A stretch of 32,984 nt of DNA, taken from assembly GCA_020341735.1 (NCBI GenBank), contig CP070833.1, forward strand, positions 338,900 through 371,883, given 5' to 3'. The DNA is from Gammaproteobacteria bacterium. Its GTDB lineage: Bacteria; Pseudomonadota; Gammaproteobacteria; Steroidobacterales; XN24. Every line of letters starts with the position of its first letter. Within the stretch, counting starts at the first letter, position 1. Positions 12,741 through 32,984 of the stretch are shown one piece after another. The translations under genes were made by a program, and so were the position numbers. The notes beneath the pieces were generated by a model. That model worked only from the letters and a program-made list of their open reading frames with translations, had not been told where the DNA came from and ran no database searches.

Positions 12741-13779
12741 GACGACCCTTGCCCTGATTTTGTCACTTGGTGCCGGTTGTGCAGCCCCCCCGCCCGAGCC
12801 GTCACCGGAGACTCTCGGTGAAGAACGCCAGGCTGTCCAGGCATCTGCAGCGAGAGTCGTCGCGACCCGTCGCACGGTCGACGAGCAACTCGAAGAATTA
12901 CACCGTGTGCTTTCGGAATTCCCGAGCGAGTTCGCCCTTGGCAATGGTGACGTGCTGTCCGTAGTCGTCTACGACGAGCCGGACCTTACTCTGGAAGCCG
13001 TTCCAATTCGACCTGACGGCAAGATATCGGCTCCTTTGATAGGCGAGGTCCAAGCCGCAGGGCGCAGCACGAGCGCGCTCAACAGTGAGATCACGAGTCG
13101 GCTCGAGGAATTCCTGGTCCAGCCAAAAGTCTCGGTGATAGCACTTGAGTTCAACAGCTTCGAGTACACCATCGATGGAGAAGTCGTTGAACCCGGCGTG
13201 TACCCGCTGAGCACGGAAGTCTCCATCACGAAAGCGATCGCTAAGGCCGGCGGTCTTAGCAAGGGCCAATACCGCGCAAGTACAATCGAACTGGCTGACC
13301 TGACCCACGCATACGTCGCTCGGGAAGGTCGGGTTCTGCCGGTGGACTTTGTCAGGCTGTTTCGGGAAGGCGACCTTCGGTTCGACATCGATCTCAGGCC
13401 CGGTGACTATATTCAGATACCGTCAGGCCTTTCCAAAGAAATATACGTCCTCGGGGAAGTGCGCGAGCCGATGCTGTTCGCTTACCGCGAGAACCTGCCG
13501 ATGTCACGCACGGTTGCCCAAGCCGAGGGCTTTACACCCGACGCCGATCTGAGCCGCATTCACATCATCCGTGGCGCACTACACAACCCGACGGTCATCG
13601 TGTGCGATTTCCGGAAAGTGATTGCCGGCGAGGCTCTTGATGTCAAACTCGAGCCAGGTGACATCGTATATGTCCCGGAAACAGGGCTGACCTCCTGGTC
13701 GCGCGTCATGGACAAAATCCTGCCAACGATGCAGTCGATATGGACCGGATTCCTGGTTCACGACGCCCTCAACGATTAG
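12733..13779 (+). CDS. Wza-like outer-membrane polysaccharide export lipoprotein (OPX)
   Basis: A 348-aa export protein. The signal peptide ends in lipobox LGAGC (Cys16). A Poly_export domain follows (about 60-145, containing GNGDVLSVVVYDEPDL and RPDGKISAPLIGEV). Two SLBB-type beta-grasp domains come next (about 147-195 with DGEVVEPGVYPL, and 240-290 with VLGEVREPM). The C-terminal WSRVMDKILPTMQSIWTGF is a plausible amphipathic outer-membrane helix as in Wza. ATG 12733 has GAGGTG just upstream and overlaps the Wzc-like stop by 8 nt. It would form the outer-membrane channel that pairs with the Wzc-like protein. Confidence 0.92.
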   Translation: MRKTTLALILSLGAGCAAPPPEPSPETLGEERQAVQASAARVVATRRTVDEQLEELHRVLSEFPSEFALGNGDVLSVVVYDEPDLTLEAVPIRPDGKISAPLIGEVQAAGRSTSALNSEITSRLEEFLVQPKVSVIALEFNSFEYTIDGEVVEPGVYPLSTEVSITKAIAKAGGLSKGQYRASTIELADLTHAYVAREGRVLPVDFVRLFREGDLRFDIDLRPGDYIQIPSGLSKEIYVLGEVREPMLFAYRENLPMSRTVAQAEGFTPDADLSRIHIIRGALHNPTVIVCDFRKVIAGEALDVKLEPGDIVYVPETGLTSWSRVMDKILPTMQSIWTGFLVHDALND

Positions 13780-15962
13780 GGCGGCCGCGTCGAGGTTTGG
13801 TGCCGGCCCTCGCGCTAGGCAGCTGTCTCCTCGCAGGGAGTAAACCTCTGATATCGGATACAGCGCACGACTTGCAAGTGCGTGTCCTGAGCGCTCGAGC
13901 GGTCACTTTTGTATCCACCGCAGACAACCTTCTCTCGCAGGCCTCCCCGGACGAGTTGCGGCTACGATTAACTGACGGTCGGGAATTGACTCCGGTTCTT
14001 GTCGGCCAGGACAGACAGGTGACTGGATTCACTGACAACGGAGACCCGCTCGCCGAGCACCGATTGCACGTTTTGTTTGCCCACCCGCTTCCGAGTGGCG
14101 AAGACGTATCATTCAAATTCGGATCGCAGGCGATGAGTTTCCGCTACGCCGCAGACGCCGTCAGCTCTGCCATCCAGGTCAACCAGGTCGGGTATCCGAC
14201 GGCCGGCCCGAAATATGCGTATGTGGGCGAATGGCTTGGCACGGCCGGTCCCTTGCCTGTGGATTCGAACCGCTTCGACATTCTGAACAGGGCCGGAGAG
14301 AGTGTCTTCGGGGGCCCTCTTGTCTTACGCAGCAGGTCCGATCCGTGGAGCGGGAACAACGTCTATGCGGCCGATTTTAGCGATTTCCAATCGCCGGGCG
14401 CTTACCGACTAAGGGTGCCCGGCATTGGCATATCGTACCCGTTCAAGATCGGAGATCGGGTCTACGAACATGTATACAAGCGGGTCGCGAGACTTTTCTA
14501 CCACTCTCGCAACGGAACAAGTATTTCAGAGCCATGGGCGGACCCGGGATACGAGCGGCCTGGTGGCATTGACCCTGAGCTTGACGGGGTACTGCACGAG
14601 CGCGTCATGACATCACCGCTTGGAACCGGGTCAACCCGTGACCGCCGCCATCCAGTCGTACGCGGCTGGTTCGACGCTGGCGACTACGGCCAGTACATGA
14701 CCAACGCGGCCCCGGTCTGGTACTCGATCGGAGTCGGAATGGACCTGGCACCGCGGAACTTCCGGGATGACGATCTCGGCATCCCGGAAAGCGGCAACGG
14801 CGTGCCCGATCTGATCGATGAACTCGAGTGGGGAATGGATTGGGCGCTGTCAATGCAGGCGGAAGACGGTGGCGTCTACTGGAGGATTGCCAGTCGACGC
14901 TGGGACAGCACACTGCCCCATCAAGTGGACGAGCCGAGGCTGATTGCCGAACGAACCACTCACGCCACGGCCGTATTTGCTGCCATGGCGGCAATTCACG
15001 CACGACTGGTTCGGTCGCAGCGGCCCGAACGTGCCGATCTCGTTCTGAAAGCCGGACTTTCCGCCTGGCGTTTCGTGAAGACCCACCGGCAGTGGCCGCC
15101 AGAGGGAGAACAGTTCCGCAATCCGGAGGGGGTCTCTGCGGGTGAGTACCCGGATCGATCAGCCAAAGATGCGCTGGCGTGGGCAGCCGCGGAGTTATTC
15201 CGAACGACCGGAAATCATGAGTTTCTGGTTGAATTCGATAAGGCGTTCGGCGATCTTCGGCTCGATCCTACAGGGTCCGTTTCATTCAGAGATCAGGGCA
15301 TGGGAGCGCTCTGGGCGTATCTGATGAGCCCGGACCCTGCACGTGATGATGGTCTTGTGGCACACGCTCGTGAGACACTCCTGGCCGGCGCTGAGTGGAG
15401 GCTCCGGCAGATGGACGCGCATCCATTCCGAGCTGCCCAACATCCCGCGATCCAACTCGCCGGCTGGGGCAACTTCGCCCACTCGACCCGTGCTACCGCC
15501 CCCCTTTTACAGGCGTGGCACATCAGCGGGGACGACCGTTTCCGCAACGCGGCGTGGTTGACCACCGGTCCCCAGCTCGGCACCAATCCTCAGTCGATGA
15601 GTTACATCACCGGCGTCGGCAGTCGATCGCCGCAGCACCCCCTATCCAAATTGTCCATGTATGACAATGTCGATCGACCGCTGAACGGGATCCCGGTCAA
15701 TGGCCCGCACTATCATCTGCCAGCGATCTGGGACAGCACGCGCGCGGTGAATTCCGGCTATTTTCCGCGGGAAAATCCTCCTCCCGATGCACTCGCGTCC
15801 GGATATCCGGCGCTCAGGCGTTACACCGACAGCGAACTGCTTCCACCCATGAGTGAACCCACGGTCGCGGAGATCGCGGTGACCGCGGTAGCTTACGGAC
15901 TGCTGCGTGACGAGAATTTCGCCTTCGGGCCACAGACACGCGGCAGGCCCGTGGGCGAATGA
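13740..15962 (+). CDS. Secreted glycoside hydrolase family 9 (endoglucanase-like)
   Basis: A 740-aa protein with an N-terminal Ig-like CelD_N domain (about 140-240) and a GH9 (alpha/alpha)6 catalytic domain (about 245-730). The catalytic Asp pair is in GWFDAGDYG (D312, D315), and the acid Glu matches E711 in AEIAVTAVAYG. The usual H-H-R after the SYITGVGS..PQHP segment is replaced by LSK. ATG 13740 lies inside the export gene (40-nt overlap), but only this start gives the basic RRPQRLGRPRRG n-region before the hydrophobic VPALALGSCLLAG. GTG 13800, with GAGG 4 nt upstream, is the alternative. The leader could be Sec, Tat (RRGLV) or a weak lipobox (LGSC). GH9 enzymes cut beta-1,4-glucans; here it probably trims or releases the EPS. 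Confidence 0.88.
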   Translation: MDRIPGSRRPQRLGRPRRGLVPALALGSCLLAGSKPLISDTAHDLQVRVLSARAVTFVSTADNLLSQASPDELRLRLTDGRELTPVLVGQDRQVTGFTDNGDPLAEHRLHVLFAHPLPSGEDVSFKFGSQAMSFRYAADAVSSAIQVNQVGYPTAGPKYAYVGEWLGTAGPLPVDSNRFDILNRAGESVFGGPLVLRSRSDPWSGNNVYAADFSDFQSPGAYRLRVPGIGISYPFKIGDRVYEHVYKRVARLFYHSRNGTSISEPWADPGYERPGGIDPELDGVLHERVMTSPLGTGSTRDRRHPVVRGWFDAGDYGQYMTNAAPVWYSIGVGMDLAPRNFRDDDLGIPESGNGVPDLIDELEWGMDWALSMQAEDGGVYWRIASRRWDSTLPHQVDEPRLIAERTTHATAVFAAMAAIHARLVRSQRPERADLVLKAGLSAWRFVKTHRQWPPEGEQFRNPEGVSAGEYPDRSAKDALAWAAAELFRTTGNHEFLVEFDKAFGDLRLDPTGSVSFRDQGMGALWAYLMSPDPARDDGLVAHARETLLAGAEWRLRQMDAHPFRAAQHPAIQLAGWGNFAHSTRATAPLLQAWHISGDDRFRNAAWLTTGPQLGTNPQSMSYITGVGSRSPQHPLSKLSMYDNVDRPLNGIPVNGPHYHLPAIWDSTRAVNSGYFPRENPPPDALASGYPALRRYTDSELLPPMSEPTVAEIAVTAVAYGLLRDENFAFGPQTRGRPVGE

Positions 15963-19563: not shown

Positions 19564-19631
19564 GTCATTCGCTCCGGCAAAAGTTGTTTTGCAATCTGGG
19601 ACGCGGACAGGTCTCGATATAGGAATCATTG

Positions 19632-19647
19632 TGCAAATCGAGAGCCG
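19632..19647 (-). promoter_or_regulatory. Candidate sigma-54 promoter, P4
   Basis: Minus-strand CGGCTC-N5-TTGCA: the GG/GC core spacing and the -12 box are perfect, while the -24 box deviates at two positions. The predicted start at about 19621 gives a 58-nt leader before ATG 19563. It lies in the 308-nt divergent gap 19564-19871, which contains no convincing gene. Confidence 0.45.
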
Positions 19648-19737
19648 CGCGAATCGGGGCCGTGACGAGGCTGTTCCTAAGCTGTCAAGCCTTATCCGCC
19701 ACTCGTCCGGCCATTCATTGGGCCTTGTCGACGCATC

Positions 19738-19753
19738 TGGCCTGGTTCTTGCT
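19738..19753 (+). promoter_or_regulatory. Candidate sigma-54 promoter, P5
   Basis: TGGCCT-N5-TTGCT with correct 12-nt GG-to-GC spacing; two -24 positions deviate from TGGCAC. The predicted start at about 19764 leaves a leader of about 108 nt before GTG 19872. This argues against the longer open frame that begins at 19629. It is divergent from P4. Confidence 0.5.
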
Positions 19754-19871
19754 TGAGTGCTGGAACAAGCCTTCGGGTCGAGTCTTGAAACGCTGCTGCC
19801 ATCAATACCGCAGTTCGTTAGCTGGGCTCAGTCGGGGTAATGATCGTGCTGCGCTTTACAGGAGTCATATC

Positions 19872-21596
19872 GTGGCAGAAAACATCTGCCGGCCCGAAAC
19901 AGGGCCTCCCTCATTGGCAGGCCGGACCCTGTCCTCCGGGGTCCTCGGCGGACTTTGCCTGTCCGCGATCGCCGTCTTCATCGTCTTCGGCATGCCTACG
20001 GGTACCTGGCTTGAAGCGTGGCTGGGGCTTGCGGTCGCGACTTTGGCTGGCTTCGTGGTGCGCGGACTGAGGAGAAAGGCCTGGTTCGGATCCAGGCTTT
20101 CCCTCCACCAGTCGCTATCCTTCGAGGGCGTGGTTCAAACGGTCCAGTGGTTAAGCCCGTCATTATCCTCGCGCGCATTCGAGACAGAATTTCTCATCCG
20201 CGAAACAAGCATGGGCAGAAAGGAGGTCACAGCCTGGTTGCGCAGTCGTCGGCTGACGCTGCCAGTAATTGCCTGCGCGGCCGCGGGCGTCATTTCATGG
20301 TCTTTCGGCACAATGACCGTTGCAGCGATTTTTTCGATGCTGGCGATCTTTGCGATTTTGAAGGGCACGCAGCAATTCACCGCGCTGGAGTCGGGGAAGG
20401 AAAACCAGCGCGTTCATGCCATGGCGACCATGTCGGGACTCGCTGTCTGGGGTATCGAGGGGACTCTTTTCGTAGTCGCCACACAGTCCTTGCTGGACCT
20501 GCCCCAGGCTCTTCTCCTTTATATAGGCTTCACGGTGGCCGTCGAGTCCGCTGTTATTCCCATGGCTCTTGGGGTAGCTGAATTACCTGCTGTTCTCGCC
20601 ATAGCCTGGGGAGGCGGGCCCACTGCGCTCGGCGTACTGCTCATATTCCATGCTTCCCGCCTGATACTTCTCATGGCGCTCGGGCTCGTTTACCTCCCTA
20701 GGTACAAACTGACGGTCGATGATCTGCTGGACACCGGGCTCATCACTCGTCTGGCCTCATCGCAGCGCCCGGCGGAGGGTTGGCAGTTCGAAGATGATGG
20801 AGAAGTCGCCTGTGATATCTCGGTGGTCATTCCTGCATACAACGAAGCTGAGCGGCTGCCGCCCTACCTCGATGAAGTAGTCAACACCCTCCGGCAAACC
20901 GTGGATCGATGGGAAATTATTGTCGTCGATGATGGCTCGACTGACCTCACACGGGAGATTGTACGAGACTTCTCCGCAATAGAACCCGGAGTCCAACTGG
21001 TCTGCAACGAGATCAATCTCGGCAAGGGTGGTGCTGTCGCGAGGGGCGTGTCGGAGGCCCGTGGCCGGTACATCCTGTTCACGGACGCTGACGGCGCGAC
21101 GCCGGCGTCGGAGATCCACAAGCTCGTGGCCGCGCTCCATTCGGGGGTTGAAATCGCTATCGGCTCCCGTCGTGCAAGCGACGTGGCTGTGACGCTCCGC
21201 AGAGATTCGATCCGTGCAGCATTGGGTTCCTCTTTCTACGCCTTCGTAAATTTCTTTGCGGTGCCCGGAATTCGAGATACGCAATGCGGATTCAAAGCGT
21301 TTCGTCGAGATGCTGCAAGCCGCCTGTTCGACCAGTTGACCGAGACCGGTTGGGCATTTGACGTGGAAGTTCTGTACCGGGCTCAGCTGGTCGGTTACGC
21401 CGTCGCCGAAGTGCCAGTCAACTGGCAGGAGATGGAAGGATCGAAGCTCGATCCGGTGCGCGATGCCATCCGGATGGCAAGGGCAATCTTCAAGATCCGC
21501 CGACAGAACGCCGGATTCCAGCGCCGGGTGGCCAACCACCGCGCAATATCAGACGACTTGCCGATCGGATCGGATCGATGGAAATGTACCCCATGA
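19872..21596 (+). CDS. Fusion: YbhN/LPG-synthase-TM-like membrane domain + polyprenyl-phosphate glycosyltransferase (GtrB/ALG5-like)
   Basis: A 574-aa two-domain protein. Residues about 20-290 are membrane-embedded with several hydrophobic helices and resemble the flippase-like YbhN/AglD domain. Residues about 313-555 form a GT2 domain of the dolichyl/undecaprenyl-phosphate hexose synthase type, with ISVVIPAYNEAERLPPYL, IIVVDDGSTDLT, NLGKGGAVARG, LFTDADGATP (D-x-D) and DTQCGFKAFRRDAA. This enzyme type transfers glucose or a related sugar from a nucleotide donor to a polyprenyl phosphate. GTG 19872 is chosen because AGGAG stands about 8 nt upstream and P5 predicts a transcript starting only at about 19764. 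The 19-nt overlap with the next gene couples it to the GtrA/GT-C protein. Confidence 0.88.
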   Translation: MAENICRPETGPPSLAGRTLSSGVLGGLCLSAIAVFIVFGMPTGTWLEAWLGLAVATLAGFVVRGLRRKAWFGSRLSLHQSLSFEGVVQTVQWLSPSLSSRAFETEFLIRETSMGRKEVTAWLRSRRLTLPVIACAAAGVISWSFGTMTVAAIFSMLAIFAILKGTQQFTALESGKENQRVHAMATMSGLAVWGIEGTLFVVATQSLLDLPQALLLYIGFTVAVESAVIPMALGVAELPAVLAIAWGGGPTALGVLLIFHASRLILLMALGLVYLPRYKLTVDDLLDTGLITRLASSQRPAEGWQFEDDGEVACDISVVIPAYNEAERLPPYLDEVVNTLRQTVDRWEIIVVDDGSTDLTREIVRDFSAIEPGVQLVCNEINLGKGGAVARGVSEARGRYILFTDADGATPASEIHKLVAALHSGVEIAIGSRRASDVAVTLRRDSIRAALGSSFYAFVNFFAVPGIRDTQCGFKAFRRDAASRLFDQLTETGWAFDVEVLYRAQLVGYAVAEVPVNWQEMEGSKLDPVRDAIRMARAIFKIRRQNAGFQRRVANHRAISDDLPIGSDRWKCTP

Positions 21597-23701
21597 ATCA
21601 GAACCTGAAGGTTGGCTGGCAGGTGAGCCGTTTTTCACTAGTCGGGATTTCCAACACGGCGGTGGATTTCATCGCCACCAACATTCTTTACTTTCTGTTA
21701 GCGCCAGACGATGACTCGGGTCTGTTGCTGATTTCGATTATTGCCTGCCTCATCGCGACCGCTAATTCCTTTGTTCTAAATTCGCGCTGGACGTTTGCGG
21801 AGGTCTCTGATGCCGATCACTCTTTGTCGCGTTTTCTGGCGACAGCGGGTGTGGGGATGCTCGTCAACACGGCGATATTTCTGTTCCTCATGCGTCATCT
21901 GCCGCTGTCCGGTCTGACCGACGATTATGTCGCCCTGAATCTCGCCCGGTTCGGCGGCGTCGTCGCCGCCATGGGGGTCACTTTCTGCGGCTACAGGCTG
22001 TGGGCCTTCGCACCGGGTCTCGCAGCGCGTCGTCGGACAGCCGACGATGATCTCCAGCCCAAGGCGGTGTTTTCTGCCGGGCCGTTCCTGATACTGATGG
22101 CCGTGGCCCTGGCGACGCGGATCGTAGTTCTCTGGATGGCTCCCGTCATTTACGGAGACGCTGTCAATTACGCCTGGGTTGCGCGCCTGACCGCCAGCGG
22201 ACATCTTGAGACCGTCGACCTCTTCTGGCACAGCCTGTTCGACTTCTGGCAGGTGCTGTTTGTGTGGCTGGGCGCGGGGCAATATGCGGCGCCCGTGCTG
22301 GCAAGCCTGATACCAGGCGTTCTGCTCGTCTGGCCGGTCGCCCTGATCACGTGGCGCCTGTATGGAAACCGCGCGGCCGGATTATCTGCCGCACTGGTGG
22401 CACTACACCCCAGATTGGTGGAGTACTCCCTCAATGGTTACGCAGAGAGCTTCTATATGCTCGGTGCCACATGGGCGACCTATGGCCTTGTTATTTTGGC
22501 GAGAGAACCACGGCGGCTGACGGCCCTTTTGGCTGCAGGCCTTGGACTGTCCGCGTGGATCCTGGTAAGAAACGAAGCTCTCTTGTTCGCCGCAATCGCC
22601 ATCCCGCTAGCGCTCTTAAGTCAACGCCATATGTGGCGGGAGATCGTCAGATCGGCTGTATGTGTTGCAATCATCGTAAGCACCCTTGTCGTCGCCTATG
22701 CATTCACGAATCTCGTCTTGTGGGGCGAGCCCGGTCTGGTCCAGAAAGGCAGCAATCTTGCTCGTGAACATGTCGAGATGCTGGATCCGCACGAGGCAGC
22801 CAGAGAGACCTATGGGGTCACAGCACCCGTTGCGCAACAGCCCGATGCCACTGCGATTGTCCGCAAGCTGGCCAAACGCTGGCCCGGGAATATCCGCTAC
22901 ACGGCCGAGCGATTGCCCGGCATGCTGCTGTCACCGATTATTCTGTTCGCCCTTCTGCTGCCGATACTGGGGCCGCGCAGATCCAGTTCAGCTTCGCCCA
23001 CTTGGCCTGTGATTCTGTTGGCAGCCTGGCCGATCGCTTTCTATCCGCTCATCCAACTCGAACCGCGGATGTTATTTCCTACCCTGATCGGCGCAATCAT
23101 ATTCGGCAGCGCCGGGGCGTTGCTGGCAGGCCAGCGCCTCGCCGGCCTTGTGCCCAGACATCGGACTCTCGTTCAGTGGGCCCCCGGGTTCGTCACATTG
23201 CTTCTGTTGCTGCCCTTGATCCCACTCCTCGCCTGGCACTCCGGCAGCGAGCGTGGGTTTCACCGCGAGGTCGGCACGTGGCTCGCAGAGACGCTTCCGC
23301 CGAACGTGCAAATTGTCGGTGACGGCTATGGATACGTGAGCGCCAGCGCTTTCTGGGCAGGGCGCCGCGCCGAACCTCGAATGTGGACTGACGACAAAGA
23401 GATTCTGGCCAACAGTGTTGGCGACAACGCCGTCCTGATTTTGTACGAACGGTATCTCCGTGAGGCCAACCCGGAGTTACTCTCGTCCCTCGATGACGGG
23501 CTACCCGGGATGATCCGGATCGTGGAGTTCGATTTCCCCCGTATCGGCCGCGTGCAGGCTTGGCGCCATATCGATGTAGTCGAACATGTCCGGGAAAAGC
23601 GGCGCGGTACTGTTGGCGTTGTCGACTCTATATCTCAACGTAATATACTCAAGCGTGCGTCTACTCCTGCGAACGCGTTGATTCCGGGAGATGAGATATA
23701 G
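21578..23701 (+). CDS. Fusion: GtrA-like flippase domain + GT-C polyprenyl-linked glycosyltransferase
   Basis: A 707-aa membrane protein. Residues about 14-145 form a four-helix GtrA domain (FSLVGISNTAVDFIATNIL, NSFVLNSRWTF, FCGYRLWAF). Residues about 165-560 carry many more hydrophobic helices in the manner of the PMT/ArnT GT-C superfamily, with D194 in the first external loop (VIYGDAVNYA) as the likely catalytic base, and a soluble C-terminal region. GtrA proteins flip polyprenyl-phosphate sugars, and GT-C enzymes use them on the periplasmic side. ATG 21593 is an alternative start; neither ATG has a strong Shine-Dalgarno. With the upstream fusion it forms a complete Gtr-like modification pathway in two proteins. 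Confidence 0.87.
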   Translation: MEMYPMNQNLKVGWQVSRFSLVGISNTAVDFIATNILYFLLAPDDDSGLLLISIIACLIATANSFVLNSRWTFAEVSDADHSLSRFLATAGVGMLVNTAIFLFLMRHLPLSGLTDDYVALNLARFGGVVAAMGVTFCGYRLWAFAPGLAARRRTADDDLQPKAVFSAGPFLILMAVALATRIVVLWMAPVIYGDAVNYAWVARLTASGHLETVDLFWHSLFDFWQVLFVWLGAGQYAAPVLASLIPGVLLVWPVALITWRLYGNRAAGLSAALVALHPRLVEYSLNGYAESFYMLGATWATYGLVILAREPRRLTALLAAGLGLSAWILVRNEALLFAAIAIPLALLSQRHMWREIVRSAVCVAIIVSTLVVAYAFTNLVLWGEPGLVQKGSNLAREHVEMLDPHEAARETYGVTAPVAQQPDATAIVRKLAKRWPGNIRYTAERLPGMLLSPIILFALLLPILGPRRSSSASPTWPVILLAAWPIAFYPLIQLEPRMLFPTLIGAIIFGSAGALLAGQRLAGLVPRHRTLVQWAPGFVTLLLLLPLIPLLAWHSGSERGFHREVGTWLAETLPPNVQIVGDGYGYVSASAFWAGRRAEPRMWTDDKEILANSVGDNAVLILYERYLREANPELLSSLDDGLPGMIRIVEFDFPRIGRVQAWRHIDVVEHVREKRRGTVGVVDSISQRNILKRASTPANALIPGDEI
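23619..23646 (+). promoter_or_regulatory. Possible sigma-70 promoter before the cyclase gene
   Basis: TTGTCG, a 16-nt spacer and TAATAT (4/6 match to each consensus hexamer) lie in the 3' end of the GtrA/GT-C gene, in an unusually AT-rich patch. The predicted start at about 23653 gives a 60-nt leader before ATG 23715. Weak evidence. No sigma-54 box was found before this gene. Confidence 0.3.
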
Positions 23702-23714
23702 GGAGAGCGGTTGG

Positions 23715-26700
23715 ATGAAGTGCCCCAACTGTCATAACGATACTAAAGAGAGCGCGAAATTCTGCGAGGAATGTGGGACACGTCTGATCGTTGCCTGCGG
23801 CTCATGCGGTACGGAGCTCTCACCAGCGGCGAAATTCTGCAGCGAGTGTGGTACGGCTGCCCAATCGACACAGTCGCCGGCACCCGAGGCGGATGCCCCT
23901 GTCACCCGGCATCCAGCGGCCACCAGCAGGACCGAGGACGTTGCGGCCGAACGGCGACAGCTGACGGTCATGTTCTGCGATATCGTGGGATCGACCGAGT
24001 TATCGGAAAAGCTGGACCCGGAAATCCTCAGAGAAGTGGTGCACTCGTATCACGATACGACGGGTCGCGTGATCGGTCGTTACGAGGGCCATAACGCTCA
24101 ATACCTGGGCGACGGTCTACTTGTCTATTTCGGCTACCCGATCGCACATGACGACGATGCCGAGCGGGCGGTTCGCGCGGGGCGCGAGATCATCACCGCC
24201 CTTTCAGAAATGAATGTAAGACTTGAGAAAGAACACGGCACAACAATCTCCGTCCGCGTCGGCATTCATACCGGGCCGGTTGTCATCGGCGCCGTCGGCT
24301 ACGGGGGACGACAGGAAAATCTGGCCCTTGGAAGCACAACCAATATAGCGGCCCGTTTCGAGAGTGCCGCAGAACCGAACACCGTCTTGATCAGCGAGAC
24401 CACACTGCGACTCATACCGGGCCTCTTCGTCACCGAAGAGGTGCCCATGCCGCCACTCAAGGGCGTCACGACACCGATCAGAGGTTATGTGGTACGACAT
24501 CCGAGCGGTGTGGGATCCAGCCTGGTCGACACGGTTCGCCTGACCCCGCTCGTCGGTCGCGAACTGGAAGTGGGTCTGTGCCTGGACAGGTGGGAGATGG
24601 TTCAGGATGGTGCGGGCCAGGCTCTCTTGATATCCGGGGATGCCGGCATTGGCAAGTCACGGCTGCTCACCGTTCTGCGCGAGCGCCTCGCCGATACGCC
24701 ACACACATGGCTCGAGTGCCGCGGTTCTTACTACATGAGACACACGGCATTTCAGCCTGTGACCGAACTCCTGCAACAAGCTGTCGGGTTCCAGGCGACG
24801 GATACCGTCGAAATCAAGCTGGAGCGTCTGCGCAAGGGTCTCGAGATCACGGGTGTATCCGTAGAGGATACCCTCCCACTGCTGGCGGCACTGCTGTCAC
24901 TGCCGCTGTCGGATGGTCAGGATCCGGTGTCGACGGTGAGCTCAGAAAAGCGTAAGGAAACGATTGCCGCCCTGGTAGGCTGGATTCACGCCGTCGCCGC
25001 AACGCAACCTCTGGTGTTGATTGTCGAAGACCTTCACTGGTGTGATCCGTCGACCGTCGAGTTTCTCGGCATTCTCATAGAACAGATCGAAGCTTCCAGA
25101 GTCATGGTGGTTGTCGCGTTCCGACCCGAGGCGAAACTGCCTTGGCCGGGGCGTTCCAATCAAACGCCGGTGGTCCTGAGTCCGTTGCGGCGCAGTCAGG
25201 TGACGTCAATGATCACAAGTGTCGCGGGCGGCCGGAGCGTTTCGAGTGAGATGGCCGAATTCATCATCGACAAGGCGGGCGGAATTCCGCTCTATGTCGA
25301 GGAAATCACGAAGATGATGATCGAGTCGGAGCAGGTCAACCTGGTGGATGGCCGCTACGAACTGGTCGGCCAGATTGACACGCTTTCGATCCCGACGACG
25401 CTCAAGGATTCGTTGATGGCGCGTCTCGATAGTCGCGCAGACGCGAAGGAGTTGGCGCAGTTAGCAGCGGTGATCGGTCGTGAATTCGGATACAGCCTGA
25501 TAGAAACTGTGACAGATCTGGACGAATCCGACTTGAGGCGGCGACTAGCGGAGCTTGTGGCGGCAGAGTTGTTTTACCAACGCGGCGTGATACCGGCGGC
25601 GACCTTTACTTTCAAGCATGCACTGATCCAGGACACCGCCTATCAGTCTTTGCTGCGCAGTGCCCGGCGTCGTTTTCACGCCCGGATTGCACAGGTACTC
25701 GAGTCGGACTTCCCTGAGCTCGTCATCGCGCGACCCGAGATGATGGCCCAACACTGCGAAACGGGGGGATTGGCCGAGCAAGCCCTTGAGTATTACGTTC
25801 GCGCGGGAGATGCGGCGGCGATGAGATCGGCTAACAGGGAAGCCATCCATCACTACGAAGGGGCGATCAAAACCCCTCGGACACTGCCGGATGTCGAGGA
25901 CCGCAGCCGCCAGCATTTGAATCTGTTGATGATGATCTCCGGTTGCCAAATGAGCGCCTTCGGCTGGGGTCATCCGGATGTCGCCAACACGCACAAGAGG
26001 ATCCAGAAGGTTTACAAGAACGTCGATGATCCTACGCTTGGCTCTGAGGCTTTGCTGGCACTGACCACCGCTGCCAATGTCAGGGCGGAATTCGATCAAG
26101 CACTGCAGCTGGCTGCAGATCTGTTGAATCTGGGCGAGTCGGCTAATGACCCATCGATTAGCTACATGCCGGAGTGTCAGCTGGGAGTGACGTCGTATCT
26201 CCAGGGGAAGTTGTCGGTCGCATTGAAACACTTCGAGCTCGCTGATGAACGCTATGACAACGAACGACATTTGCCGCTGACGCGTTATACGGGTTATGAC
26301 ATCAAAACATTGGCGCAGGCGTTCTCCGCGATGGTTATCTGGCTGCGAGGATTTCCTGATCAGGCCATTGCCAAAGGGCGAGAAGCCGTCGAGACGGCGG
26401 ACACAGTTCAGCATTTCGAAAGCGCTGTCATCGCGCGTTGTTTGCTCGCATGGGTATTGTTGATGCGTGGTGAACCATCCGCGGCGATGGCACCGTCCGA
26501 AGATGCAGTGCATACCAGCCAGACGCGGGAGCTGAAGTTCCTGGAAGGCTTCGGTCGTACGATGTTGGGCCTGGCGACGGCAGCGGCCGGCAACGAGCGA
26601 GAGGGAATCGAGGAATATCGGAACGGATGCCAGATTATGGCTGAAGCAGGTGCCCGATTTAACTCGACCGGGATTTTGAGTAAAGGCGCCGCTGCCTGTT

Positions 26701-27098
26701 TGCACGCCGGCGACCTCGGCACTGCCAAATCGGCGCTCGAAATCGCTTCCGCGTTTAGAGATGCGACTGGTGAACTCTTCTGGGAATCAGAATTACAGAG
26801 GCTCAATGGAGAAATCTGCCTCGCCGGTGACGACATAGATGAGTCTGAGGCAGAACAACATTTCCAGCAGGCGCTGGAAATCGCACGGGGACAGGGCGCG
26901 AAGTCATTCGAACTGCGTGCCGCCATGAGCCTCGCACGCTTATGGCAAAAACAAGGCAAGCAACAGGATGCCCTCGACCTGCTCGCTCCGATCCACGACT
27001 GGTTTGCCGAGGGGCTGGACACCGGCGACCTCAAGGATGCAGACGCCTTGCTGAAGATGCTGGGTGACAGCGGAACTACCGCCGCCGCCTCGAACTGA
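23715..27098 (+). CDS. Zinc-ribbon / class III cyclase / AAA ATPase / TPR regulatory protein
   Basis: A 1127-aa multidomain protein. Two zinc ribbons open it (C3, C6, C17, C20 and C28, C31, C42, C45). A class III nucleotide cyclase domain spans about 82-260, with metal Asp residues D89 (FCDIVGS) and D133 (YLGDGLLVYFG) and transition-state pair N210/R214. An AAA/STAND ATPase follows (Walker A GDAGIGKS 308-315, Walker B LVLIVEDLHWCD 433-444), then about 450 residues of TPR-like helices. The Lys that usually recognises adenine, just before the second Asp in this family, is Gln here (Q129), so cAMP production is not assured. AGGGAGAG precedes ATG 23715. It is probably a cytoplasmic signalling protein that links nucleotide or partner sensing to EPS control (inference). 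Confidence 0.88.
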   Translation: MKCPNCHNDTKESAKFCEECGTRLIVACGSCGTELSPAAKFCSECGTAAQSTQSPAPEADAPVTRHPAATSRTEDVAAERRQLTVMFCDIVGSTELSEKLDPEILREVVHSYHDTTGRVIGRYEGHNAQYLGDGLLVYFGYPIAHDDDAERAVRAGREIITALSEMNVRLEKEHGTTISVRVGIHTGPVVIGAVGYGGRQENLALGSTTNIAARFESAAEPNTVLISETTLRLIPGLFVTEEVPMPPLKGVTTPIRGYVVRHPSGVGSSLVDTVRLTPLVGRELEVGLCLDRWEMVQDGAGQALLISGDAGIGKSRLLTVLRERLADTPHTWLECRGSYYMRHTAFQPVTELLQQAVGFQATDTVEIKLERLRKGLEITGVSVEDTLPLLAALLSLPLSDGQDPVSTVSSEKRKETIAALVGWIHAVAATQPLVLIVEDLHWCDPSTVEFLGILIEQIEASRVMVVVAFRPEAKLPWPGRSNQTPVVLSPLRRSQVTSMITSVAGGRSVSSEMAEFIIDKAGGIPLYVEEITKMMIESEQVNLVDGRYELVGQIDTLSIPTTLKDSLMARLDSRADAKELAQLAAVIGREFGYSLIETVTDLDESDLRRRLAELVAAELFYQRGVIPAATFTFKHALIQDTAYQSLLRSARRRFHARIAQVLESDFPELVIARPEMMAQHCETGGLAEQALEYYVRAGDAAAMRSANREAIHHYEGAIKTPRTLPDVEDRSRQHLNLLMMISGCQMSAFGWGHPDVANTHKRIQKVYKNVDDPTLGSEALLALTTAANVRAEFDQALQLAADLLNLGESANDPSISYMPECQLGVTSYLQGKLSVALKHFELADERYDNERHLPLTRYTGYDIKTLAQAFSAMVIWLRGFPDQAIAKGREAVETADTVQHFESAVIARCLLAWVLLMRGEPSAAMAPSEDAVHTSQTRELKFLEGFGRTMLGLATAAAGNEREGIEEYRNGCQIMAEAGARFNSTGILSKGAAACLHAGDLGTAKSALEIASAFRDATGELFWESELQRLNGEICLAGDDIDESEAEQHFQQALEIARGQGAKSFELRAAMSLARLWQKQGKQQDALDLLAPIHDWFAEGLDTGDLKDADALLKMLGDSGTTAAASN

Positions 27099-27395: not shown

Positions 27396-28763
27396 TCAGA
27401 CCGTGTGTGATCGAGCCGCGGCGGAACGCCGCAGCAACCAGAGTGCCGCAATCTGGCGTCGCCGATTGCCATGAGTCGCCTTTACGACGCGGGGAAGCGC
27501 CGCAAGAAAACCGGCCAACATGAAGAACTCGACGGTCAGGTAGGTTTGGCGGAATGCCCACTCCAGGAAGGACTGCAGCCAGAATCCCAGCATGCCCACA
27601 AGAATCCCGACTGCCATCCAAGAGGCAGGGTCGTCTTGCCGACTAGCCACTGTCCTCAACCCGATCCAGAAGAAGTTGCCAATGAGAATCACGAAGGCGA
27701 TCAGCCCAGGCCACCCCATCTCGCAAGCATGTAACAAATAAATATTGTGCACGATGCCGCGGTCCATCTCGTTCGGAATATAGAGGGAGTACTTCGTCTC
27801 GTTGATCACATGAGAGTAGTTGTTGATACCGACCCCAAAAAGATGCTCGCTGGCCATTGCATAGGCGGCATCGTTGGCCTGCCCGCGACTTTCGCCCGAC
27901 GCAACGGGTGCATTTTGGAAGCGGTCGATAACGGCGGGTGCGAGCTTGATCGCAACCGGCATCGCCGCGAGTGCCATCAGTCCGACTAGGAGGAATTTTT
28001 GTCTGGTTGGTCGTAGGGCGATGGAAAACAGGACAACGAGCCCGTAGCAGCCGACCATCATCGCCAGCGCGCCACGCGAGAAGGTTGCCGCAACGATCAG
28101 CGTCCCCATACCCACACAGGCAAAATACAACCATCGCCGCCAGTGTCCCGGCTTCTCATTGAGGAAGAATGACAAGAAAATCATGTTCATCATGTTGATG
28201 TACATGGCGAGGGTATTTGGGTGGGGCGTCGAGCCAACTGCCCTGTACACACCGAATGCGCGCTGCTCAAGGACCAGGAAGAACTCCATGCAAACGATGG
28301 CTGCGAGTATGTAGAGAATAAAACGCAGGTCTTCCTCTTGCCGCAGATAATTGTATGCAACCCAGTACACGGCCATGGCCCGCAGCAACTTCATCAGGCC
28401 AAAGCCCGCATAGACGGGCACATAGGCAGCGATCGCTGATAGCAAGGCCAGGAGCATGTACAAGACGATCGGCCCCGAATTCGGCGGTAGTAGGGACAGG
28501 GACTGGCAACTCCATCTGGGAGAACGCGCCATTACGACGATCAGGGAGATCACCATCCAGTCGGTCAGTCCGAACTCGAATCCGCGAGTGTCGCCCCGAT
28601 ACCACTCCATCGACAACAGGTTGATATCCACCAGATAACAGGTGGAAAAGAAAGCTCCGGCGACGATGCCACGCTCTACCCAACGGTATCGACAACCCAG
28701 CCAGGCAGCCACGGGTATGAAGATGATCGCCGCGGCCAGGAATGTGTATTGCTTTGCTTCCAA
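27396..28763 (-). CDS. Wzy / O-antigen ligase family polysaccharide polymerase
   Basis: A 455-aa inner-membrane protein with about 11-12 hydrophobic helices. The Wzy_C region shows FSRGALAMMVGCYGLVVLFS. After the long periplasmic loop comes VHNIYLLHACEMGWPG, the H-N-x-x-L...E-x-G signature of O-antigen ligases and polymerases. TTG 28763 is chosen as start because a perfect AGGAGG lies 7 nt upstream and the product then begins directly with a membrane helix. The open frame extends to 29030, but that part would cross the divergent promoters. As the only Wzy-like gene here it is the likely polymerase of the repeat unit. Confidence 0.88.
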   Translation of the reverse strand: MEAKQYTFLAAAIIFIPVAAWLGCRYRWVERGIVAGAFFSTCYLVDINLLSMEWYRGDTRGFEFGLTDWMVISLIVVMARSPRWSCQSLSLLPPNSGPIVLYMLLALLSAIAAYVPVYAGFGLMKLLRAMAVYWVAYNYLRQEEDLRFILYILAAIVCMEFFLVLEQRAFGVYRAVGSTPHPNTLAMYINMMNMIFLSFFLNEKPGHWRRWLYFACVGMGTLIVAATFSRGALAMMVGCYGLVVLFSIALRPTRQKFLLVGLMALAAMPVAIKLAPAVIDRFQNAPVASGESRGQANDAAYAMASEHLFGVGINNYSHVINETKYSLYIPNEMDRGIVHNIYLLHACEMGWPGLIAFVILIGNFFWIGLRTVASRQDDPASWMAVGILVGMLGFWLQSFLEWAFRQTYLTVEFFMLAGFLAALPRVVKATHGNRRRQIAALWLLRRSAAARSHTV

Positions 28764-28788
28764 TGAAGGGCCTCCTGAATTCAAGGAA

Positions 28789-28804
28789 ACCAAGTTCCGT
28801 GCCA
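28789..28804 (-). promoter_or_regulatory. Near-consensus sigma-54 promoter, P7
   Basis: Minus-strand TGGCAC-N5-TTGGT: the -24 box is perfect, but the -12 box has GG where GC is expected, a normally conserved base. The predicted start at about 28779 sits just before the AGGAGG and TTG 28763 of the polymerase gene. The octamer at 28863-28870 lies 59-66 nt upstream of it. Confidence 0.35.
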
Positions 28805-28862
28805 GCGGGCATTTCTTGGCGAAATCGGCAGAGAACCTCGTCGCGGTTCGCAAATTGCCAAT

Positions 28863-28870
28863 CAATCTGC
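28863..28870 (+). promoter_or_regulatory. CAATCTGC octamer centred between divergent sigma-54 boxes
   Basis: The octamer is 65 nt (start to start) upstream of the -24 box of P6 and 59-66 nt from that of P7 on the other strand. One bound activator could serve both promoters. It is identical to 97-104 before P1, and related octamers lie before P2 (1920-1927) and P3 (18168-18175, inverted). The 218-nt divergent gap 28764-28981 contains no gene. Confidence 0.4.
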
Positions 28871-28927
28871 CGTCATCTCCTTGTCGACGGCCCCGAATTG
28901 CCGCGTCATCAAGGAGAAGAAGAGATC

Positions 28928-28943
28928 TGGCACACCTCTTGCT
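28928..28943 (+). promoter_or_regulatory. Sigma-54 (-24/-12) promoter, P6
   Basis: TGGCAC-N5-TTGCT, a full RpoN consensus match with correct GG-to-GC spacing. The predicted start at about 28954 leaves a 28-nt leader carrying AGGTGA before ATG 28982. It would drive the initiating transferase gene and the pseudo-nucleotidyltransferase gene behind it. Confidence 0.8.
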
Positions 28944-28981
28944 CCGGACTTCATCGAGCGAACACCCCCCAGGTGACAGAG

Positions 28982-31000
28982 ATGACCGGATCCACAGACA
29001 GCCCGACGACTTACGCGTTAGACAACCCAAAGCCGCTCAGGCGGAAACTGCGAGCACGCCTGCATCGGCTGCGCCCCCGTTTGCAGGGAGCGGCTGCCCG
29101 AACTCTCGACGTGACGCTGGCGGTTGCCCTGCTCACATTCCTTGCGCCACTCATCCTGGTGCGCGGCATGCTGGGATGGGCAGCGACCGGTCGATTACTG
29201 GCACGCGTCCACCGTATCGGCTTGGATGGAAAACAGATAGAGCTCTGGCTTTTCGCGGGCGACATTCCGGGCCGCGGCCTGGCGACCCCGTTCAACCTCA
29301 TTCGCGGTGAACTCTCCCTGGCCGGGCCGCGACCGGAGACAGTGCAGGAAGCTGCCTCCTCAGTTCCGGATCCTGTTCGCCGGTCCGTTTCACCTGGCGT
29401 TTTCTCACCTTACGAGGTGCGGCGAAATATCGGCCTCGATTGGGAGTCAGAAGGAGAAATCGAGCGCGACTTCGTGTATGCCCAGAGGCCACTCTCCGGT
29501 GTGGCGGTCGCCACACGCACTCTGGTCGGGCGCGTGCTCGGCGGTCAGTCTGATCGCCCCTGTCCGGATGAGGTCATCTTTTTCGGCATCTCAATACGCA
29601 ATACAACAATGGATGAGTCCCTGGACTGGATCATGACCAAGGTGAAGACGCAGGATCCGTCGATGTTGGCGTTCGTCAATCCAGATTGCCTGAACAGCGC
29701 GTGGGAGAACAAGATCTATCGTGCAGTCCTTCAGGGCGCGGCCCGCGTCCTTCCTGACGGCATTGGCGTCCATCTGGGCTGCCGCATTCAGGGAACCCGA
29801 CTCGCGGCAAATCTAAACGGCACAGACATGTTTCCGCGTCTGTGCAAGCGCGCTGCAGAAGACGGTGCAAGCCTATTTCTGCTTGGTGCACGTCCAGGCA
29901 TCGCCGCGGCCGCGGCAGAGAACATGGAGAAACAGATTCCCGGCCTGCGAATCGCCGGCACCCATCATGGTTACTTTGACGAACAGGAGACCGCGAAGGT
30001 CATCGCAGAGATCAATAGCTCTGGCGCCGACATATTACTCGTAGCCATGGGCGCTCCCCGCCAGGAGCTATGGCTGGCGCAGCATGCCGATGAACTCACC
30101 GCCTACGTCCGCATGGGCGTCGGCGGTCTGTTCGACTTTTACTCCGGCCGTGTCCAGCGCGCCCCCGTATGGGTTCGGGAAATCGGGATGGAATGGGTCT
30201 GGCGGATCCTGATGGAGCCCCGTCGAATGTGGCGACGATACGTCGTTGGCAACCCCGTGTTTCTTAGCCGTGTCTGGCGAGAGTCAAGAGGCCGAGGCCG
30301 ACAGGGGCGATCGCCGGTCGGGTCGTCCCGGCGGTTGCAAGCAGCGCGGCGCGGCAAGGCCTCCCTTAAGCGCATCAGCTGGCGGGCCGCACTTGCCGCA
30401 GGGGCGACATGCAAGCGCGGTCTGGATCTGGCTGGCGCTGCCGCCGGTTTGCTGCTGCTGTCACCGATTTTGGCACTGGTCGCGACCGCAGTGCGTTTTG
30501 AGTCTCCGGGACCTGTTCTGTTTCGCCAGCAACGTGTCGGTCTCGGCGGACTTCCGTTCATGATGCTGAAGTTCCGCTCCATGTACATGGATGCGGAGGC
30601 CCGTCGCGAGGCCATGATGGAGAAGAATGAGATGCAGGGCGGCGTGCTCTTCAAGATCAAGGATGACCCGCGTATCACCCGGGTCGGAAGATTCATCCGT
30701 AAAGCCTCTATAGACGAACTGCCGCAACTCTGGAATGTTTTCCGAGGCGACATGTCCCTGGTCGGCCCGCGTCCACCCCTGCCCAGTGAGGTCGCCGACT
30801 ACGACCTCGCCGACCGACGGCGGCTGCATGTGAAGCCCGGCATTACCTGCATCTGGCAAGTGTCTGGGAGGTCAGACATACCATTTGAGCGCCAGGTAGC
30901 ACTGGACCTGGATTACATCTACAGCCAGTCGCTGAAAACCGATATCAAGCTGCTTCTGCGGACGGTCCCGGCCGTCATTCTCGGCAGAGGCGCGTATTAG
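28982..31000 (+). CDS. Triple fusion: degenerate PGT + GT26 (WecG/TagA/CpsF) + intact phosphoglycosyl transferase
   Basis: A 672-aa protein. Residues about 38-188 follow the outline of a bacterial sugar transferase (membrane helix, then NLIRGELSLAGPRPE, then a C-terminal tail) but lack F-R-S-M and the D-E catalytic pair. Residues about 195-435 are a GT26 domain with FVNPDCLNSAW, LPDGIGV (D259), NGTDMF, MGAPRQELWL and GVGGLFDFYSG. Residues about 475-672 are a complete monotopic phosphoglycosyl transferase with SPGPVLFRQQRVG, KFRSM, catalytic D578/E579 (SIDELPQLWNVFRGDMS) and VGPRP. It probably loads the first sugar phosphate on undecaprenyl phosphate and adds the second sugar. ATG 28982 is chosen for its AGGTGA and because P6 starts transcription at about 28954; the open frame upstream is not expected to be expressed. 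Confidence 0.9.
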   Translation: MTGSTDSPTTYALDNPKPLRRKLRARLHRLRPRLQGAAARTLDVTLAVALLTFLAPLILVRGMLGWAATGRLLARVHRIGLDGKQIELWLFAGDIPGRGLATPFNLIRGELSLAGPRPETVQEAASSVPDPVRRSVSPGVFSPYEVRRNIGLDWESEGEIERDFVYAQRPLSGVAVATRTLVGRVLGGQSDRPCPDEVIFFGISIRNTTMDESLDWIMTKVKTQDPSMLAFVNPDCLNSAWENKIYRAVLQGAARVLPDGIGVHLGCRIQGTRLAANLNGTDMFPRLCKRAAEDGASLFLLGARPGIAAAAAENMEKQIPGLRIAGTHHGYFDEQETAKVIAEINSSGADILLVAMGAPRQELWLAQHADELTAYVRMGVGGLFDFYSGRVQRAPVWVREIGMEWVWRILMEPRRMWRRYVVGNPVFLSRVWRESRGRGRQGRSPVGSSRRLQAARRGKASLKRISWRAALAAGATCKRGLDLAGAAAGLLLLSPILALVATAVRFESPGPVLFRQQRVGLGGLPFMMLKFRSMYMDAEARREAMMEKNEMQGGVLFKIKDDPRITRVGRFIRKASIDELPQLWNVFRGDMSLVGPRPPLPSEVADYDLADRRRLHVKPGITCIWQVSGRSDIPFERQVALDLDYIYSQSLKTDIKLLLRTVPAVILGRGAY

Positions 31001-31010
31001 GAGTTATGCC

Positions 31011-32414
31011 ATGAATCACAGAGTCATCATTCTGGCCGATCGGAGCGGCGCGGAGCTTACACCCCTTGACCGCGAGACCTGTCCTGCCCTCATTGAAGTC
31101 GGCGGTCGGACCGTCATCGAGTACACGCTCGAGGACCTCGCCGAGTGCGGATTGAGAAGAGCCACCGTCATCTCCAACAGAGTCGAAAAGCTCCGCGAAC
31201 AGTTAGGTGACGGCAGCCGATGGGGATTGGATCTGTCATTCGTGCTGACCCGGCCGGAACAGACACCTGCCGACTCCATCCGGCGAGCGGCCGGAAAGGG
31301 GCCTTTACTGCTGATCCGCGGTGACATCGTTCGTGGACGCTGTATCGCCCGGTTTCTGGAGGCGGCGAAAGACAAGACCTGGCGCACGGTCGCAGCCGTC
31401 TCGGATCGATTCGACGCCGGCATGAGTCTGGTTCAGGGGGAGTGGACCCATGGTTGCACATGGCCTTCATTCGAACTCGGTATCCATGTCGTAGAGTTAG
31501 GCGACATTGGACTCCACCGCCTGGAGACGATGGCTGATCTGCATTCCGCCTGCATGGCCGCGGCCCGTGGTGACCTCCCTGGAGTGTCTCCAGCGGGAAG
31601 AGAAACAGAGAAAGGCCTGGTGACGGGTCGTCTGTCGCAAACTGACGGGGTGCGCATAGAAGACGGCCGGCTGTACGTTGGCCATGCGGCGAAGGTGGCG
31701 CCCGGCGTGAAGATACGCGGCACGGTCGTCATTGGAAGCGGTGCGCTCGTGGATGAGGAAGCCTATCTCGAAGAAACGGTCGTCATGCCCGGAAGTTACG
31801 TGGGGCGACACGTCGAACTTCGCAATGCGATCATCGCGGGGTCTCACCTGATCCGCGTAGACACCGGTGCTACGATGGAGGTAGCGGACGATTTCCTGCT
31901 GTCCCCTCTGCGACAAGAGAAACGGAAAATGAGGTGGGACAGTTGGTGGGATCGACTAATCGGAGTCTGCTTGCTGATTCTCTCTCTTCCTCTCTGGCCA
32001 CTTGCGTTCTTGACCAGCCTGTTCGCCAGCTCCGGCTCACCGTTGGTCAGCAGAAGCCTGCGCAGCAACCGGTTGCAGGAAGGCGGCCGTGCTCAATTCG
32101 CCGCGTGGGAGTGGAACACGCCCGTGCCGCTGCTTCGTTACCTGCCCTGGTTGCTGCCCGTCATATCTGGACACCTCCGTATCGTCGGCATTCGCCCCGC
32201 TCCGGCCCATGGCGCAGATCCGGACCGAACCGATGCCCCTGCCGGTATCGTTGGCCCCGCCTTATTGGACGTCGGCGCGGAGGCTACTGAAGAAGAGATC
32301 ATGCTGGGCGAGACAGTATTCCTTGAGCGCAACAATTTCTCGCAGCGCCTTCGCTATCTCGTCCGCAGCATAGTCTCGTTGTTCAGTATGAAAGCCTGGA
32401 ACCCAGCGCGTTAG
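31011..32414 (+). CDS. Fusion: pseudo-nucleotidyltransferase + beta-helix + degenerate PGT-like domain
   Basis: A 467-aa protein. Residues 1-200 have the fold pattern of NDP-sugar pyrophosphorylases (VGGRTVIEYTLEDLAECGL, LLLIRGDI with D105). The catalytic signature G-x-G-x-R...P-K is replaced by DRSGAELTPL and CPALIEVGG, so activity is doubtful. Residues about 222-290 form a short left-handed beta-helix. Residues about 308-400 look like a shortened bacterial sugar transferase: a membrane helix (WWDRLIGVCLLILSLPLWPL), then LPWLLPVISGHLRIVGIRP, without F-R-S-M or D-E-L-P. AGGAG lies 7 nt before ATG 31011, 10 nt after the previous stop. A scaffold or regulatory role with the initiating transferase is inference; a divergent active enzyme cannot be excluded. 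Confidence 0.78.
   Translation: MNHRVIILADRSGAELTPLDRETCPALIEVGGRTVIEYTLEDLAECGLRRATVISNRVEKLREQLGDGSRWGLDLSFVLTRPEQTPADSIRRAAGKGPLLLIRGDIVRGRCIARFLEAAKDKTWRTVAAVSDRFDAGMSLVQGEWTHGCTWPSFELGIHVVELGDIGLHRLETMADLHSACMAAARGDLPGVSPAGRETEKGLVTGRLSQTDGVRIEDGRLYVGHAAKVAPGVKIRGTVVIGSGALVDEEAYLEETVVMPGSYVGRHVELRNAIIAGSHLIRVDTGATMEVADDFLLSPLRQEKRKMRWDSWWDRLIGVCLLILSLPLWPLAFLTSLFASSGSPLVSRSLRSNRLQEGGRAQFAAWEWNTPVPLLRYLPWLLPVISGHLRIVGIRPAPAHGADPDRTDAPAGIVGPALLDVGAEATEEEIMLGETVFLERNNFSQRLRYLVRSIVSLFSMKAWNPAR

Positions 32415-32493: not shown

Positions 32494-32984
<491 letters not shown>

Follow-up and report, generated by a model that had tools for sequence, protein, structure and literature searches.

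GMPPA and the gamma and epsilon subunits of eIF2B share a nucleotidyltransferase and left-handed beta-helix (LbH) fold, have lost catalytic residues, and serve as subunits of complexes. GMPPA binds GDP-mannose and regulates (restrains) GMPPB (PMC11228364). The DUF of WbaP-type PGTs, a domain related to sugar-nucleotide enzymes that is attached to the PGT, provides dimerization and uridine-nucleotide sensing; it keeps the dimer together and binds both UMP and UDP-sugars (PMC10942596). Myxococcus xanthus EpsZ lacks the dimerizing beta-hairpin of the WbaP DUF and is bound and activated by a separate protein, EpsW (PMC12802240).

The protein described here, P0001, has the same fold as GMPPA and the eIF2B subunits (Z 24-25), but its constant neighbor is a membrane PGT rather than a pyrophosphorylase paralog or a GTP-exchange complex, and it carries an extra fused dead PGT membrane domain. 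It resembles WbaP in the association of a domain related to sugar-nucleotide enzymes with a PGT. However, the WbaP DUF acts in cis and has a dehydratase-like fold, whereas P0001 is a separate protein with a nucleotidyltransferase fold, and its PGT partner has no detectable DUF. The likeness to EpsW that we propose is that of a separate protein acting on the initiating PGT; unlike P0001, EpsW is a soluble, phosphorylated single-domain response regulator of unrelated fold. The gene and its neighbors lie in the window, the whole stretch of 32,984 nucleotides that was analyzed, as follows.

31011..32414, + strand: whole P0001 gene, encoding a pseudo-nucleotidyltransferase, left-handed beta-helix and dead PGT (467 aa)
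31011..31625, + strand: pseudo-nucleotidyltransferase domain, residues 1-205 (Pfam NTP_transferase, VIA-align)
31032..31091, + strand: erased NTP-binding signature LADRSGAELTPLDRETCPAL, residues 8-27 (alignment, conservation)
31317..31334, + strand: RGDIVR, residues 103-108, with the metal-site Asp105 kept between the family-conserved Arg103 and Arg108 (conservation scores)
31626..31910, + strand: left-handed beta-helix without conserved His, residues 206-300 (Pfam LbH models, AF2 strand pattern)
31932..32411, + strand: C-terminal dead PGT domain with the catalytic segment deleted, residues 308-467 (Pfam, profile comparison, AF2)
31941..32027, + strand: predicted re-entrant membrane helix, helix-break-helix 311-325/328-339 (peak hydropathy 2.4)
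28982..31000, + strand: partner gene, encoding a dead PGT, WecG/TagA GT26 and live PGT; probable start at Met81 of the listed ORF
29027..29566, + strand: N-terminal dead PGT of the partner (hhalign to live PGT; helix/strand order)
29567..30301, + strand: WecG/TagA/CpsF glycosyltransferase domain of the partner (Pfam 224 bits; Foldseek TagA/TarA TM 0.94)
30377..30997, + strand: live monotopic PGT of the partner, with KFRSM, SIDELPQL and the dyad at 30713-30718 (Pfam 258 bits; Foldseek PglC 8G1N)
27396..29030, - strand: Wzy-like polymerase, divergent from the pair (Pfam Wzy_C 51 bits; same divergent layout in genome G036)

The window holds a Wzx/Wzy-type EPS locus with a flippase, Wzy, Wza-type export, Wzz-like proteins and many glycosyltransferases. 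In this pathway the PGT reaction comes first, likely followed by the fused WecG-type transfer as the second step. The partner fusion probably starts at 28982 rather than at the listed 28742, because the homologous part begins near Met81; the listed TTG start of the Wzy-like gene overlaps the partner gene, and the true start is therefore probably further in. Pfam found neither a WbaP-type TMH bundle nor a CoA_binding_3-type DUF in the partner (P0002), giving only WecG and Bac_transf.

Several other genes in the window were noted. At the edge of the EPS locus, a response regulator-SpoIIE phosphatase, HATPase and STAS in a row (180-2398, +) form a partner-switch module. Within the locus are a GH9 cellulase with a CelD N-terminal domain (13740-15962, +), a 655-aa protein with a GT2 domain after a long N-terminal region (19629-21596, +; a similar neighbor is present in G036, L019 12389-14158), and an 1135-aa protein with zinc ribbons, an adenylate/guanylate cyclase domain, an AAA ATPase and a TPR region (23691-27098, +). 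This last protein resembles the TOMM kinase/cyclase family below the cut-off (576 vs 706 bits). Convergent with the P0001 gene, and apparently outside the EPS locus, is the end of a cytochrome D1-type beta-propeller gene (32494-32976, -).

The earlier note on this DNA had proposed that the pyrophosphorylase signature is erased while the fold is retained, that a beta-helix follows, and that the gene lies directly behind a live PGT fusion; our analysis confirms all three points. Its further suggestion, a membrane-anchored scaffold that docks on the initiating enzyme or senses nucleotide sugars, is partly supported, and the case is widened here from a single gene to a conserved module of two genes. 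LADRSGAELTPLDRETCPAL replaces LAAGRGERMRPLTDDTPKPL, and the nucleotidyltransferase fold is recovered both by Pfam (NTP_transferase, 32.6 bits, residues 5-123) and by structural comparison of the AF2 model with VIA-align. LbH hexapeptide models of Pfam match residues 220-281, in agreement with the AF2 strand pattern. The P0001 gene starts 10 nt after the stop codon of the upstream fusion on the same strand, and its Shine-Dalgarno sequence AGGAG (30999-31003) overlaps that stop codon. At the C-terminus, the Pfam Bac_transf match is sub-threshold (16.9 bits, residues 378-458); the ortholog in G036 scores 26.9 bits against a cut-off of 27. Under automatic annotation, genes of this type would probably be labeled active pyrophosphorylases.

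The AF2 model of P0001 (mean pLDDT 86.6) shows a nucleotidyltransferase and beta-helix fold, followed by a PGT-like helix/strand order without the catalytic insert. VIA-align, which covered about residues 1-300 with the PGT tail outside the comparison, matched the model to the nucleotidyltransferase 8X7S (Z 28.7, 299 residues, 2.9 A), to eIF2B (Z 25) and to entries of the GMPPA/GMPPB complex (Z 24.6). The best PDB match in a sequence-profile search was eIF2B epsilon, a non-catalytic member of the nucleotidyltransferase fold without pyrophosphorylase activity. MurU, RmlA and archaeal GlmU share with P0001 the fold and the GDGxxWG loop (for MurU, 24% identity and Z 21.5), and enzymes of this type are the probable ancestors of its domain, although P0001 lacks their signature, catalytic Lys and second metal Asp.

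The loss of the signature is shared by the family. In an alignment with MurU-type enzymes of relatives, GG-x-GTR has become DR-x-GAE in P0001 (ADRSGAE) and the catalytic Lys has become Ala, whereas the relatives' real MurU-type enzymes retain AGRGERMRP...PKPL; the NTP-phosphate-binding motif reads LAAGRGERMRPLTDDTPKPLL in a relative's MurU-type enzyme compared to LADRSGAELTPLDRETCPALI in P0001. The GGxGTR-type signature is erased in every aligned family member. The altered signature is itself conserved across 27 homologs as A(N/D)R-x-G-x-EL-x-PL...CPALLPV, and is kept from Shewanella to Magnetospirillum, Azospirillum and the genome of P0001. P18, E41, G68 and D105 are invariant in the 27 homologs, and R11, R103 and R108 are nearly so. 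The catalytic Lys of the PKP motif corresponds to Ala26 and is Ala in 16 of 17 sequence-weight units. The catalytic Arg of nucleotidyltransferases is also gone from P0001 in the alignment, and of the two metal-site Asp residues the first (D105, in RGD) is invariant whereas the second (W-x-D-V-G) is not kept. The best-conserved polar residues of the family cluster in the two loops of the former active site, and the mean conservation score is 0.59 in the signature loop compared to 0.35 in the dead PGT, the least conserved part.

Judged by its sequence, P0001 lacks the residues needed for normal pyrophosphorylase or PGT activity. Classical binding of NTP is unlikely, given the loss of the nucleobase-loop Gly and of the metal-2 motifs. 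Because the new motif is conserved and D105 is kept, we consider the site to have been rebuilt rather than to have decayed randomly. The newly conserved pocket set R11/R103-D105-R108 probably binds a sugar nucleotide or phosphate; alternatively, the conservation of these residues could be structural in origin. An active enzyme with a rebuilt site, one that carries out a different transfer reaction with a sugar phosphate or in which the beta-helix transfers acyl groups, would fit the conserved pocket and the retention of D105. We regard this as very improbable, however, given the missing catalytic Arg, Lys and second metal Asp and the deletion of the PGT catalytic segment. An active pyrophosphorylase was rejected on the loss of the signature, the Lys and the second metal Asp. 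An acyltransferase of the LpxA/GlmU-C type was likewise rejected, as no conserved His was found among the top-scoring columns of the beta-helix (residues 206-300).

The C-terminus of P0001 had been described earlier as PGT-like without catalytic residues, a description that is correct with one amendment: the catalytic segment is deleted, not just substituted. A profile of this region from 22 sequences matched the live PGT profile (hhalign; local P 94.4, E 8.5e-8; global P 96), and gave a better match to the N-terminal segment of the partner (P 96-97, local E 5e-9). That segment in turn matched the live PGT with P 98.7 and E 4e-16, with about 40 residues missing. Dead PGT domains have in common with monotopic PGTs (PglC, and the catalytic domain of WcaJ/WbaP) the re-entrant helix, the beta hairpin and the LPQLWNV-GDMSLVG core, but they lack the stretch of about 40 residues that carries KFRSM and the DE dyad. 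KFRSM or DELP was found in none of the 22 C-terminal dead domains of long-form members and both were found in all 22 live PGTs; the one DELP string present in an N-terminal region, that of L046, lies off the dyad position. The C-terminal domain keeps the LPxL..V..G.L..G motif and a predicted re-entrant helix (hydropathy 2.4 for segment 316-334), in line with homology to PF02397, without the dyad or KFRSM. The AF2 models have a common order of helix-break-helix, beta hairpin, LPxL helix, short strand and two final helices, with the insert absent. The sequence profiles and models thus point to two dead PGT domains in the gene pair, with which the upstream protein begins and P0001 ends, and the dead PGT domain serves as a building block twice within one gene pair.

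One interpretation of these domains is that P0001 is a pure structural scaffold, in which the dead domains only anchor and oligomerize the PGT/WecG complex and act as a pseudo-dimer partner that replaces the WbaP DUF dimer, with no sensing. Both dead PGT domains keep the membrane helix and the LPxL..V..G helix/strand and lose the catalytic segment, the beta-helix is an oligomerization fold in relatives, and large PGTs function as dimers (PMC10942596). On the other hand, it is the loops of the former active site, not the dead PGT, that hold the top conserved polar residues. This distribution of conservation, highest in the active-site loops and lowest in the tail, indirectly favors a ligand role over a mere anchor, and we consider the pure scaffold rather unlikely.

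The two-gene module of pseudo-nucleotidyltransferase and PGT fusion occurs across Pseudomonadota and is not restricted to one genome. A homolog 47% identical to P0001 is found in a Chromatiales MAG, in the same two-gene arrangement and beside the same wzy and GtrA/GT2 genes. A profile search of contigs recovered 24 loci, most of them in Shewanella; the remainder come from Magnetospirillum, the Chromatiales MAG and three further proteobacterial genomes. In all 24 the gene is directly behind a live PGT. Azospirillum argentinense and a distant genome, G110, also carry a homolog; among 74 genomes of the family of G110 its member was found in G110 only, and a plasmid search with this member gave no match. 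Of the 31 homologs with the erased signature among all loci collected, a sample weighted to Shewanella, 29 directly follow a live PGT (28 counted by script, and L048, where the ORF start had been set too early), compared to 0 of 47 canonical nucleotidyltransferases. Among 97 Shewanella genomes, which are related and do not represent independent counts, 53 have the pseudo-nucleotidyltransferase, the same 53 have the fusion of dead PGT, WecG and live PGT, and 44 have neither. The pair is adjacent and on the same strand in 53 of 53, with a 647-nt spacing outlier that reflects a partial match. Within the genus the pair is distributed patchily, which suggests gain and loss of both genes as one unit.

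Conservation over the full length (26-47% identity over 470 aa) is accompanied by purifying selection. Between pairs of Shewanella sequences, dN/dS of the whole protein is 0.09-0.18. In most pairs the pseudo-nucleotidyltransferase alone gives 0.06-0.11 and the dead PGT 0.1-0.3, values similar to those of the fusion partner. Loss of signature residues could also be expected of a decaying pseudogene or an annotation artefact, and in Shewanella G795 (L085 794-2190) a frameshift divides the pseudo-nucleotidyltransferase gene into two frames, with the fusion gene intact. This explanation is scarcely credible and was rejected on the conservation, the dN/dS of about 0.1-0.2, and the perfect co-occurrence with the fusion. 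Comparative sequence evidence shows that P0001 and the PGT encoded immediately before it have been inherited and kept by selection together, and their conserved adjacency and perfect co-occurrence strongly support a functional tie of P0001 to that PGT. Separately, the fusions of the Shewanella loci L045 and L047 are 87% identical and their pseudo-nucleotidyltransferases only 63%, reflecting either unequal rates or recombination within the pair.

Alternatively, P0001 could be an adaptor that hetero-oligomerizes with a true pyrophosphorylase, as GMPPA does with GMPPB, and channels donor synthesis to the membrane PGT. Its fold is nearest to multi-subunit NT/LbH enzymes, 7 Shewanella loci contain a canonical nucleotidyltransferase no more than a few kb away, and a ManC-like gene (AILAGGSGTR) is close downstream in G110. 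However, no pyrophosphorylase was noted elsewhere in the window, nor does one accompany the family throughout; the constant partner is the PGT, making this explanation improbable.

The composition of the module is variable. The dead PGT tail is absent from some members (e.g., L024, L028, L046 and L048). In Milos-ODIII6 (L041) and G110 (L056) the tail is present, and the PGT of these loci has no dead N-terminal domain; docking between two dead domains is therefore not obligatory. A strict pairing of the two dead PGT domains was rejected: L041 and G110 lack the N-terminal one, and L046 lacks the C-terminal one. Two genomes of one genus carry tail-less members of the same family that are not beside a PGT (L025 331-1353 and L026 1495-2439). 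Such tail-less members and non-PGT neighbors indicate that the arrangement varies.

It is very likely that P0001 is a non-catalytic partner of the PGT. We give an even chance to the fuller reading, in which it is an accessory subunit of the initiating PGT that docks at the membrane and gates or scaffolds the initiation of lipid-linked EPS. The C-terminal dead PGT would insert its re-entrant helix in the inner membrane and pack against the PGT fusion, which itself has a dead PGT, the beta-helix would help P0001 to oligomerize, and the pseudo-nucleotidyltransferase would sit over the PGT active site on the cytosolic side. There, the remodeled pocket (R11, R103, D105, R108) may bind a nucleotide, sugar nucleotide or sugar phosphate, so that the complex would form or fire only with donor sugar available, or the product would feed back. 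That P0001 is a ligand-responsive regulator rather than a pure scaffold falls slightly short of an even chance. Because the WbaP DUF binds ligand and dimerizes, the PGT here has no DUF, and EpsZ is activated by the separate EpsW, we propose that P0001 may do the job of the WbaP DUF in trans. By analogy, GMPPA is the closest functional precedent. More tentatively still, three PGT folds, one of them active, could be present in one complex in which a dead nucleotidyltransferase senses the pool of sugar nucleotides and gates lipid-linked polysaccharide synthesis at its first committed step.

In the open-licence literature we found no paper on a protein of such make-up and none on tlr0611, and no curated family describes P0001. 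At the PGT step, how cells divide undecaprenyl phosphate and sugar nucleotides between polysaccharide pathways that compete for them is described as an open question (PMC12802240). A pseudoenzyme that is conserved and dedicated, and encoded beside the PGT, is a defined and testable candidate for such control; it is carried by culturable Shewanella as well, such as strain ANA-3, where genes are easily deleted. If the proposed role is true, the module would represent a point of control that is widespread in Pseudomonadota and has yet to be named.
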